A DNA stretch of 64,000 nucleotides, taken from positions 23,712,880 to 23,776,879 of the forward strand of contig NC_082603.1 of the NCBI RefSeq assembly GCF_030936135.1, written 5' to 3'. Each line of letters begins with the position of its first letter. Position 1 is the stretch's first letter. Under the pieces are notes generated by a model. That model saw only the letters and a program-made list of their open reading frames with translations, did no database searches and was not told the DNA's origin. Position numbers and translations under genes: made by a program. Shown in pieces: positions 20,248 through 24,345 of the stretch. This DNA comes from Gavia stellata (taxonomy: Eukaryota > Chordata > Aves > Gaviiformes > Gaviidae).

Positions 20248-23200
20248 TCAGATGGAGAGGTGCAGCTCCCGCTCCTCTTCCTCTGGCAGCTGCTCACTTG
20301 GCTGGATGTAGTTGTCCTCAATGAAGCCGTCATCATCCTCAGCTTGCAGGTCAGTGGCACCGGGCATGGGGTGGCTCTCGCTGGCCCCCCGGCCTGAGGA
20401 CCCCCTGTCCCAACTGCTGCTGTCCTCCATGGGGCTGCCTCCGATGGAGCTGGTTTCGGGCAGTGGCCGGTGGCGGTAGCTGGCGAAGTTCTTGTGGAAG
20501 AGCTTGCACTTGGCAGCGAGCGCGATCAGGATGGAGATGCCAACTGCTGCCACCAGAAAGCCCACCAGGTATGTCCAGCTCCTTCCCCCCTTCCCAGCGG
20601 GCAGTGTGGTGGCTGCGGCACAGGAAAGGCATGTCAGAGCATGGCGGGTCAGCCTGCAGCATACCCAGCGCTCCTCAGCAGCCAGCCCCGTGCATGCCTG
20701 CGGCGTGCAGTCAGCACTGGATTGCTTTCATTAGGAGCAATATAAATGCTCTTCACTAAGAGCTAGCTACCAAGGGTGCATGAACACTGCGGGGAAAACT
20801 GCCGGACGGCTGTCTGATACTGGTGCCCATCACCATGGAGTCTGTGCTCCATGTGGCTCTTGTGGCATCTGCTAACTTTTCTGTTGCAAAGCCAGCAAAC
20901 ACCTCCTGGTAGTGGCCACCCTCCCCACCAAGCCACTGCCCCAGCAGTGGCTGGGCAGCCTGAGTCTCTGGGACTGCGGGGCAGAGCAGGGAGTCTCCAG
21001 CTGCGATTCCCTCGGGGAACGGAAGGCAGGAGGGAACCAGACCTTACAGACGCCTCCGCAGCTGCACAACTTACTGTTGCTGTGGGTCACTGTGATCTGC
21101 TGCACCGTGCTGAGCCCCCGAGGAAACCGCTGCTTCATCTGGCAGCCCAGCTCCTCGGAATCCAGAGCTGCAACTTCCCAGCCCCGCAGTCCTGGGGGTG
21201 ATGCGCAGGTTACCTGCCAAGCTGGGAGAGACACAGGCTAAGGTGGGATGGGGGATCTTCACCCGTCCTCTCCCCAGTTTAGAGAAGACAATCCCTGCTT
21301 GGTCCTGGGTCAATGCAATGTATCGCAAGGTGCTCCTGGCTCTGCCCTCCAGCCTCGCTGGCCCTCAGCACATTGTAAGGCACAACCAAAGAAAAAATTC
21401 CCTGACCAAGGAACCATGCAAGCATGTGAACATGATTGGCTCCTTTTAACTGGATGATGCCAAATTCATGGATACTGAGAGAAACCCCGCTGTCACAGGG
21501 CTGCTTTTGCCTGGGAGCCAAGCTCAGAAGGTTGGAGCCTGATCCTGCCCCACAGGAGGAGCTGCCGAGTGCTCAGCAGCTCTTAAAAATGTGGTTGCTC
21601 CATGTAGATACATAAAGGTGGACTTAGGGGATGATCTTTACATGCAGCCCCTTTCCCAGAAGAGTGGCTAAATTATCCTGTCTGCTGTTCCCAGAAATCT
21701 TTGGTATCACGTGTAACTGCAAGCGAGGAAATTACACGTTTCAGTTGTGTGTCCCTCAACAGAGTGGGAGAGGTCCCTGGAGAGCCATCTCAGAGCCTGC
21801 CAGGGCTTGGAGCAAAAGGATCGAGCACGACCCCTGCGCCTGGGGTTCCTCCTGTCCGATACCTCTCCTGCCACCCATCCCCATCCGCTCACCATGCCTG
21901 CGCTGTAGCCACTGCTGCAGAGGGTGCACGGTGCAGTCGCAGACCCAGGGGTTCCCTTCCAGTCGGACTTGTGGGACTGCCTCCAGCAGCTGCAGGCTCG
22001 AAGTGTCCAGAGAGACCAGCGCATTGTGCTGCAGGTCCAGGTGGAAAAGAGCCTTCAGTGGCAGGAAGAAAGGGACCTCAAGCTCTTGCAGACTGTTGTT
22101 TCTTAGGAGCAGCGTGTGCAAGTTTCCCAAGCCCTTGAAAGCGTCCGTGTGGAGGTAGGCGATGCTGCAGCTGCTCAGGTCCAGCAGACGCAGTGCCCCA
22201 AGGTTCGAGAAGACTGCTGGGCTCAGCACCAGCAGGGCATTGCTAGACAGGTTAAGGGAGCGCAGGGAAGGGAAATGCATCAAAAGAGTCCCGTGACGGG
22301 GCATGACCAAGTTGTTGAAGGAGAGGTCCAAACCGGTGATGTTGCTTGGAAGGGAACTTGGAACGTGCCGGAGGCTCTTCCCATTGCAGTCGACCCATCC
22401 CTGGGAAAAGAGCTGCTGTCTGAGATGGGCTGTTGATGCTGGGGAGGATCTCTAGACCGAGACTCCCCAGAAGTTAAAATGTCTTAATTGATTACCCTTG
22501 CAGCTGACTGAAGGAGTAAAGGAGGAGCGTGGAGAGCTGGGCGGAAACCCAAACAGATGGAGTGGGCATGAAGGGACCAGGTTGTCACCCTCCTGTCCTC
22601 CCTTATAGGGCAGTTGTCATATAGGGTCAGCATGTAGAGTGCCTTCCTCTTCCTCCCTGAGATCCCCACCTCTAGCTCCCCAGGAGCTCTTGTGTCACAC
22701 AAGGGCTTGCTCCCAGCTGGGGCAGGGAAGCGGGTGAGACCCCTGCCCGCTGCAAGGGCAGGCAGGCAGGCGGCAGCAGCCGGCCGGGCTGCAGAGCGGT
22801 GGGCACCTGCCCCAGGCACACGTATCAAGAGCTGCTCCCCAGGGCCTGTGCAGGACACTGCACCCGTGCCTCCAGCCCTCCTGCGTTTCTGAGGATATGC
22901 GGTGAGTGACAGCATCTTAGCGCAGGCTGGCTGTGGCTATACGAGTAAACAAAACAGAGCAGGGACCACTCGCTGTCCCAGAAGGCCAGCAGTGCATGCT
23001 GGATGGATTGATCAACCCACATGGATGGATTTTTTTTACCCAAAAAACAGAGGGGCCAAATTCAAGCTGGTTTTGGGGAGCAGTCCCCAGCATGTGTTAA
23101 CTCCTGCCTGGGCTTTATGTGGGAGAGGCCCAGCTGCCCAAACTGAAGCTGCCAGAGAGCAGGGCAGCAATTCACGTTTGGTTGGGCAGGCACAGGCTCC

Positions 23201-24345
23201 TGGTCAATGCCGTGTTTGGGCCCTGCAGGCAGAGATGCCGTGCTGGCAGTTTTCTGCGGTCTGTAGTCCCGGCTTTCTAGGTCTGGCTGCTTTCCAGCTA
23301 GCCAGCCTTTCTGTTTCTTTGCTGCTCGTGTGATCACCTCTCCTTTCATCCTCCTGTTTGCCTAAATCTCCTGCCGTCCCTGCTCACCAGAGGAACAGAG
23401 CTGCACTTATAAACCTGGGCTGCCGAGGACTGGGTTATAACGGGGCTGAGCCATGGGGTCACTGCACAGGTCCTGTCTCAAGCTCAAACAGGGCTGGGCT
23501 TGGGGAGGCTGGGGAAAACAGCGCAAACCTTTTGAGGGAGTATCTGAGAGCTCAGTGGGCAGCGCTGCCCTGTGCCATCCACCGGCGACAGCCACTTTTC
23601 CTGCCTCCTGCCCAGCGCAGCGAAGCTGCTGGCTGTGGCGCTTGTCCAGGCAGGATGGGTGCCCAGGGATCCTGACCCCACAGCTGGCCTGACCCTGGCT
23701 TCAGTCACTGCATCACCGTGCACTGGAGAAGGGAGTGAGGGGCTGGGAGCCCATCAGGGATGGTGCTGCTCATCATGCACCCCTTATGGGCAGCTGCGTT
23801 ATGGCAGCAGCCAAGAGACCCCCAGAGTCGGAAACGCCACGGCTCGGACAAGCCTTTGCCAGCCCTGCTGTGCTCGGGTGAATGGGCTGGACAATGTGAC
23901 ATGTTCAGCCCGAAGCTGGGAGCAGGGGTGCTGTGGGGCTGCGAGCCCGGGTGCTGCGGGGCTGGCAGCAGGGCTGCTGCAGGGCTAGGAGCAGGACAGC
24001 CAGGCTGCAGGCGTGGGTGAACTTCCCCTGCGGCTGGTGGCCACTGGCAATGCACATCTCCCAGGTAACTCCGCTTGCTCCCATGGGTTTTCATTGCTCC
24101 TCGTGTCTCGAGCCGTGCAGGTGGGAGCTGCCTGCCAGGGCCTGCTGCCCCGCAGGTGCACAGTGCCGCCAGCCCAGCTGTGCTGGCAGGACGGGGAGTG
24201 GGGTGCCCCTGCCCGCCCCCCGCTGCTGCACACACCGGAGCCCCCTTGGCCCCCCTACCTGTTGGTCGAGGCTGCAGGGGTGTCCCATCACCACTGACCA
24301 GGCGCCGAGGAGGCTGCAGACCCCGAGCAGGCAGGCAGGAGCCAT
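20248..24345 (-). CDS. C1orf210: C1orf210 / TEMP orthologue carrying a full leucine-rich-repeat ectodomain
   Basis: Exons on the minus strand: 24345-24259, 22400-21893, 21221-21075 and 20612-20248. They join with clean AG/GT borders and phases to 368 residues. A signal peptide occupies about residues 1-21. A cysteine-bearing N-cap (C24, C34, motif [16 protein letters not shown]) leads into five to six LRRs ([42 protein letters not shown]). An LRRCT cap follows (NPWVCDC, then [14 protein letters not shown] and a last Cys), then a Ser/Thr linker, one membrane span at about 262-281, and a cytosolic tail with [11 protein letters not shown] and [12 protein letters not shown]. Those two tail motifs identify human C1orf210, an endosomal membrane protein of 113 residues without LRRs. 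Human LRRC19 shares the LRR-plus-membrane-tail plan (Pfam family LRR19-TM). The gene is intact. Ligand and role are unknown. Confidence 0.9.

Follow-up and report, generated by a model that had tools for sequence, protein, structure and literature searches.

What kind of protein did TEMP (type III endosome membrane protein), the small mammalian protein encoded by C1orf210, descend from? The question is raised by a minus-strand gene of the bird Gavia stellata, which lies in a stretch of 64,000 nucleotides (nt) of NC_082603.1 (positions 23,712,880-23,776,879; contig C10 in our analysis), hereafter the window, and whose predicted product joins a TEMP-like tail to an ectodomain of leucine-rich repeats (LRRs). 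Mouse TEMP, as described in the report that characterized it, has 111 residues with the N-terminus out and the C-terminus in, and a transmembrane segment at residues 30-50, preceded by 29 residues; the description there includes no detected signal peptide and no LRR (PMC3901140). The same report, where it deals with localization and expression, places mammalian TEMP on the plasma membrane and on early and recycling endosomes, and gives stomach, kidney, and intestine as its sites of expression. It also describes a 15-residue tail motif which is identical across all mammals compared and is also present in Lrrc19. In its account of conservation, it states that TEMP orthologues are confined to mammals and that the protein is not significantly related to any other domain or family of proteins (PMC3901140). 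In this study, we found that the bird locus is very probably a TEMP orthologue encoding a full type I LRR receptor, which would be the sister of LRRC19 by duplication of a block of genes, and from which mammals would have lost the leader and LRR exons.

Structure and identity of the gene

The bird gene consists of four coding exons of 87, 508, 147, and 365 nt, which join to 368 codons and a stop (Table 1). All three introns are of the GT..AG type and lie in phases 0, 1, and 1, the first of them being 1858 nt long. An in-frame stop is found upstream of the ATG, and no stop or frameshift occurs within the 368 codons. Exon coordinates, splice sites, phases, and product length, when re-derived from the DNA, were all as given in the original prediction for this locus.

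Pfam assigned LRR_8 (4.9e-28) and LRR_1 (6.7e-6) to the product, and its residues 254-355 belong to the LRR19-TM family (PF15176; 1.6e-11, 44.7 bits against a cut-off of 27). LRRCT (0.018) and LRRNT (0.081) score under the Pfam cut-offs, and cap cysteines are present at residues 24 and 34 (N-cap) and at 183, 185, 204, and 225. Five LRRs can be counted, four by a strict pattern at residues 75, 99, 123, and 147 and one at about residue 50 by inspection; a sixth, which had been allowed for earlier, turned out to be the start of the C-cap. The span, the tail, and the LRRs of the predicted domain list are found as such and the caps are recognizable by their cysteines, while the N-terminus is hydrophobic and is taken, by hydropathy, as a putative and possibly cleaved signal peptide. 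The cytosolic tail comprises about 86 residues. No TIR domain appears among the Pfam matches of the product up to E 1, which sets it apart from the Toll-like receptors. In the PDB, chains of TLR3, TLR13, TLR8, and TLR9 are among the best 60 of 257 matches, and the LRRC26 chain 8s3e matches residues 23-218 (2.7e-20). An AlphaFold2 model of exon 2 alone had a mean predicted local distance difference test score (pLDDT) of 49.1 and was not used.

The tail of the bird protein retains the C1orf210 hallmarks that had been pointed out in it, with 14 of the 15 residues of the mammalian motif, the last residue being S instead of G. At the same position LRRC19 of this genome reads GEDGFIEDKYID, and the tail of bird TEMP is of the type EDNYIQP, whereas that of LRRC19 is EDKYID. 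Furthermore, the gene lies between TMEM125 and TIE1 and near MPL and CDC20, and TMEM125, TIE1, MPL, and CDC20 are what we take to be the neighbourhood of human C1orf210. Since gene position and tail agree, the proposed orthology to C1orf210/TEMP is supported. The bird gene is, however, TEMP by descent and not the type III TEMP by form, because its product is not a short protein without a signal peptide but has 368 residues, LRRs, and a hydrophobic, leader-like start.

The gene list of a review includes C1orf210 among chicken genes, and avian annotation thus already uses the name. Among the titles and abstract openings searched, with most subscription journals and all annotation databases outside reach, none describes an LRR-bearing TEMP; the gene model may already sit unremarked in automatic avian annotation. 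Besides PMC3901140, the papers drawn on here are PMC10959104, PMC10763354, PMC4742566, PMC3236216, PMC4865363, PMC4062414, and PMC10298883.

Relationship to LRRC19

Searches of the bird's own genome covered a 1.32-Gb assembly in 1185 contigs, among them small ones of chromosome size (for example 10.0 and 6.6 Mb), which fits a bird. With TEMP as the query (133 matches at E <= 1; 111 of 212 candidates scored), the top match other than itself was the LRR exon of LRRC19 at C44:75507166-75507681, which scored 85.1 bits; the one after it reached 78.7. In the reverse search from LRRC19 (119 matches at E <= 0.01; 109 of 222 candidates scored), the TEMP LRR exon was likewise the top non-self match, with 83.3 bits against 71.5, and the TEMP tail exon was also found (33.7 bits). 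The LRR19-TM profile gave three matches in the whole genome, all five candidates having been scored, and the two above the cut-off were LRRC19 and TEMP.

LRRC19 itself was predicted on C44 as a gene of 376 residues with four exons of 84, 511, 210, and 326 nt, again in phases 0, 1, and 1, and with an LRR19-TM domain of 132.7 bits. TEMP shares with it the plan of an LRR ectodomain spread over four coding exons in these phases, as expected of a member of one LRRC19/TEMP family. Because LRRC19 of the same genome repeats both the exon plan and the phases, a chance join of the four TEMP exons, as read from the DNA, is very unlikely, in keeping with what had been argued from the splice sites. The two proteins are 34% identical overall, and the alignment scores of the LRR exon, the span, and the tail were each reached by 0 of 2000 shuffles; with the motif removed, the tail score was reached by 11 of 2000.

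The surroundings of LRRC19 contain two further features. Frame pieces resembling an endogenous retroviral pol (C44:75513623-75516075) lie about 4-6 kb downstream of the gene, and a WD40-like reading frame begins nearby at C44:75519345; the latter resembles PLAA, presumably as in the order of human 9p21.

The neighbours of the two genes are paired as well. At E <= 1e-5, the kinase piece of TIE1 matched two places in the genome, itself and C44:75431517-75431708, which is 74 kb from LRRC19. Top PDB matches of the window piece are TIE-2 chains (1.6e-28, 100.3 bits), and the C44 piece matches TIE-2 chains still better, at 125.7 bits, indicating that TEK lies on C44 and its sister TIE1 in the window. 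When the whole window was compared in translation with 100 kb around LRRC19, the TIE1/TEK exons formed a collinear series on the minus strand, which begins at 75445609 and descends to 75427663, and the LRRC19 exons were matched on the plus strand; what remained were shadow frames, cross-matches of the EGF type, and two weak matches (5.8e-4 and 2.8e-4). Thus, TEMP(-)/TIE1(+) and TEK(-)/LRRC19(+) have an identical head-to-head arrangement. Both of the two DMRT-A motif loci were found on the same two contigs as TEMP and LRRC19, as would presumably be expected of the 1p/9p paralogon. LRRC19 and TEK stand together on a single contig of 89 Mb (C44), and we assume that the two are Z-linked in chicken.

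In the simplest account of these arrangements, a TIE-family kinase gene and its head-to-head neighbour of the LRRC19/TEMP type would have been duplicated as one block, from an ancestor that was already LRR-bearing. Such a duplication implies that the LRR ectodomain predates it and that the short mammalian form is derived. The bird locus is therefore likely the ancestral, full-receptor form of TEMP, and it suggests that mammals kept only the membrane anchor and the tail. The original prediction had named an LRRC19-like ancestor and a loss of the ectodomain in mammals; the shared exon plan, phases, LRR part, span, tail, and sister-kinase neighbours lend support to the ancestor, while the loss is drawn from the published 111-residue mouse protein.

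Several observations weigh against this interpretation. Exon 1 and exon 3 of TEMP are no more similar to those of LRRC19 than shuffled sequences are (scores reached by 1130 and 481 of 2000 shuffles, respectively). A tree with LRRC19, as had been suggested for this locus, was run on ectodomains of the bird's own genome and left the pair undecided. In a 17-row tree of TEMP, LRRC19, and 15 chosen LRR loci, the pair was recovered in 2% of 200 bootstrap trees, although TEMP and LRRC19 as one clade were not rejected by the approximately unbiased test (p-AU 0.314). In an 8-row set, picked after the larger trees, the two join weakly (68/63) and with a long-branch warning, and an earlier 13-row tree, which contained wrong-strand rows and was replaced by the 17-row tree, had the pair in 22% of bootstraps. 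In addition, a scan of a viral contig collection matched no pattern and so gave no relative, and a scan of a genome contig collection matched a pattern in 30 stretches, none of which was confirmed as a relative. LRRs are short, repetitive, and saturated, and our argument is therefore built on the introns, the tail, the reciprocal matches, and the neighbouring genes.

After LRRC19, the LRR reading frame at C27:3114234-3114752 (L005) matches TEMP best, and its score with LRRC19 is high as well; it groups with two other LRR loci, L008 and L050, in the small tree.

Alternative explanations

The gene might yield both the LRR receptor and a short TEMP of 142 residues, the latter starting at Met227 from a second promoter in intron 2, and this short form would be ancient and the sole one kept by mammals. 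This in-frame Met of exon 3 lies 33 residues ahead of the span, where mouse TEMP has 29 (PMC3901140). Moreover, the open frame of the tail exon, when extended into the intron (20248-20727), has no Met before the span, so exon 4 alone could not start a short TEMP. However, a lone in-frame Met easily arises by chance, and we consider a dual product of this kind unlikely.

It is very improbable that the ectodomain is a secondary acquisition of birds, or of sauropsids, in which copies of LRRC19 exons came to lie ahead of an ancestral short TEMP. The undecided LRR trees leave room for such an event, but 34% identity is no sign of recent copying, and all three intron phases at matching places and a head-to-head kinase are common to both genes. 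An ectodomain gained later would have needed to recreate this exon plan at the matching site.

We give hardly any credence to the proposal that the LRR exons and the tail exon belong to two neighbouring genes, which would make the 368-residue join spurious. Intron 1, with its 1858 nt, could indeed hide another exon; against this, LRRC19, itself a join predicted from DNA, has the same four coding exons in the same phases and ends in an LRR19-TM exon, and the two genes are mutually the top match in the LRR part and the sole LRR19-TM loci above the cut-off. As for a pseudogene or decaying copy, to which the low-scoring LRR caps might point, the 368 intact codons, canonical splice sites, six cap cysteines, and 14 of 15 motif residues make it scarcely credible in this species.

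Possible function and comparison with known receptors

We compared bird TEMP with known proteins. LRRC19, an LRR receptor of gut and kidney epithelium, has the same architecture and the same four coding exons in phases 0/1/1. The LRR19-TM span and tail, the DGFIEDxYI motif, and a head-to-head TIE-family neighbour are also common to the two, and the Pfam matches of LRRC19 likewise include no TIR domain. LRRC19 differs in sequence (34% identity), in its place on C44 beside TEK, and in its tail (EDKYID); a simple pattern, applied to the whole sequence, finds 12 glycosylation sequons in LRRC19, including one in its tail, and 4 in bird TEMP. Mammalian TEMP has in common with it the span and tail, the tail motif, the N-out/C-in topology, and, with the mammalian order as we assume it, the TMEM125-TIE1-MPL-CDC20 neighbourhood. 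Unlike the bird protein with its 368 residues, leader-like start, and LRRs, mouse TEMP, in the published description, has 111 residues without LRRs or a detected signal peptide (PMC3901140). Toll-like receptors share extracellular LRRs and a single span with bird TEMP, which lacks TIR and has a much smaller number of repeats. An N-cap, a few LRRs, and a C-cap also make up the small single-pass LRR proteins of the LRRC26 type, but these do not have the LRR19-TM tail, for which there is no third locus above the cut-off in the genome.

We infer that bird TEMP is an epithelial LRR receptor cycling between surface and endosomes. The leader would take the LRR domain to the lumen or the cell surface, where the five LRRs between cysteine caps would form the ligand-binding face, and one span with a short, TIR-less tail would anchor the protein. 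The tail, with SYxHRxL followed by DGFIEDxYI, may carry sorting and signalling information by linking the receptor to sorting and signalling proteins, and the protein would move between the epithelial surface and early or recycling endosomes, reporting bound ligand from there. In mammals, the loss of the leader and LRR exons with retention of span and tail would have left the topology constant (N out, C in) and changed targeting from type I to type III.

LRRC19, according to published accounts, has no TIR domain, responds to bacterial ligands, and activates NF-kB via TRAF2 and TRAF6 in gut epithelium, and an innate recognition role may be imagined for bird TEMP as well. Two points count against carrying this signalling over: in one LRRC19 study, with one flagellin, TRAF6 was engaged and TRAF2 was not, and TRAF-type signalling is described in the reports concerned for LRRC19 only, and not for TEMP. 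C1orf210 and its neighbour TMEM125 are reported as strongly correlated with the epithelial phenotype in cancer cell lines (r 0.929 and 0.885). In data given for a pig Salmonella study, C1orf210 was down 9.09-fold and 8.33-fold in two blood comparisons, a change which is only suggestive. Human C1orf210 is listed as phosphorylated at Tyr-94. We take Tyr-94 to be the tyrosine of EDNYIQP, and the SH2 domain of CRK prefers pYxxP; it is tempting to speculate that EDNYIQP would be a fitting target for an SH2 domain that binds pYxxP, for instance CRK's.

As a possible but doubtful extension, there may have been two sister epithelial LRR receptors since the base of the vertebrates, one per TIE kinase, of which mammals beheaded one. 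What remained of a ligand-sensing receptor would be a constitutive endosomal tail with its tyrosine motif still working, perhaps by acting as a decoy for LRRC19 or by regulating its traffic and signalling within the gut and kidney cells that have both.

Through the bird gene, TEMP can be placed in a family, with a paralogue whose function is known and a form that is likely ancestral, in contrast to the lack of relationships stated for the mammalian protein in the one functional study of TEMP that our searches turned up (PMC3901140). For the human 'dark' protein C1orf210, this predicts trafficking partners in common with LRRC19 and a tail that works without a ligand-binding head. Birds, in turn, gain a second candidate epithelial LRR receptor.

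Neighbouring genes and other features

Table 1. Features of the bird TEMP gene and its immediate neighbours, numbered from the first letter of the window
Feature	Position	Strand	Evidence or remark
TMEM125, neighbour	14367..15050	+	PF15109, 7.6e-51
Candidate poly(A) signal ATTAAA	19836..19841	-	sequence
TEMP coding exon 4: membrane span, cytosolic tail, stop; residues 248-368	20248..20612	-	LRR19-TM 1.6e-11; 46.1 bits in genome search
Tail motif, residues 339-352	20299..20340	-	matches the mammalian TEMP motif as given in PMC3901140
Predicted membrane span, about residues 260-281	20512..20577	-	hydropathy peak window from residue 263
TEMP coding exon 3: rest of C-cap, juxtamembrane stalk; residues 199-247	21075..21221	-	phases 1/1 as in LRRC19 exon 3
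In-frame internal Met codon, residue 227, exon 3	21136..21138	-	position by inspection; possible start of a 142-residue mammal-like short form
TEMP coding exon 2: N-cap, five LRRs, start of LRR C-cap; residues 30-198	21893..22400	-	LRR_8 4.9e-28
TEMP coding exon 1: leader-like N-terminus, first N-cap cysteine; residues 1-29	24259..24345	-	ATG, GT donor, upstream in-frame stop; same plan as LRRC19 exon 1
TIE1 exons, first to last matched	32818..40704	+	in head-to-head orientation to TEMP; exons collinear with those of the sister kinase gene on contig C44

On the TIE1 side of TEMP, MPL and CDC20 were recognized from single exons. One MPL exon matches the thrombopoietin receptor in the PDB (6.9e-12), and the PDB search with another MPL exon gave no thrombopoietin receptor match. 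The CDC20-type WD40 exon scores 155.5 bits (2.4e-45), which is below the whole-domain cut-off of 200, as it is one exon and thus a partial domain. Of seven sequences compared with Pfam, three were assigned to no family (two reading frames of the TIE1 region and a filler peptide), and an exon of the ELO family also lies on this side of the window. Between the MPL and CDC20 regions, a perfect, GC-rich tandem array of period 43 extends over 49430-49834 (9.4 copies, 100% matches). A second perfect array, of period 31 and 5 copies, is found at 50383-50537.

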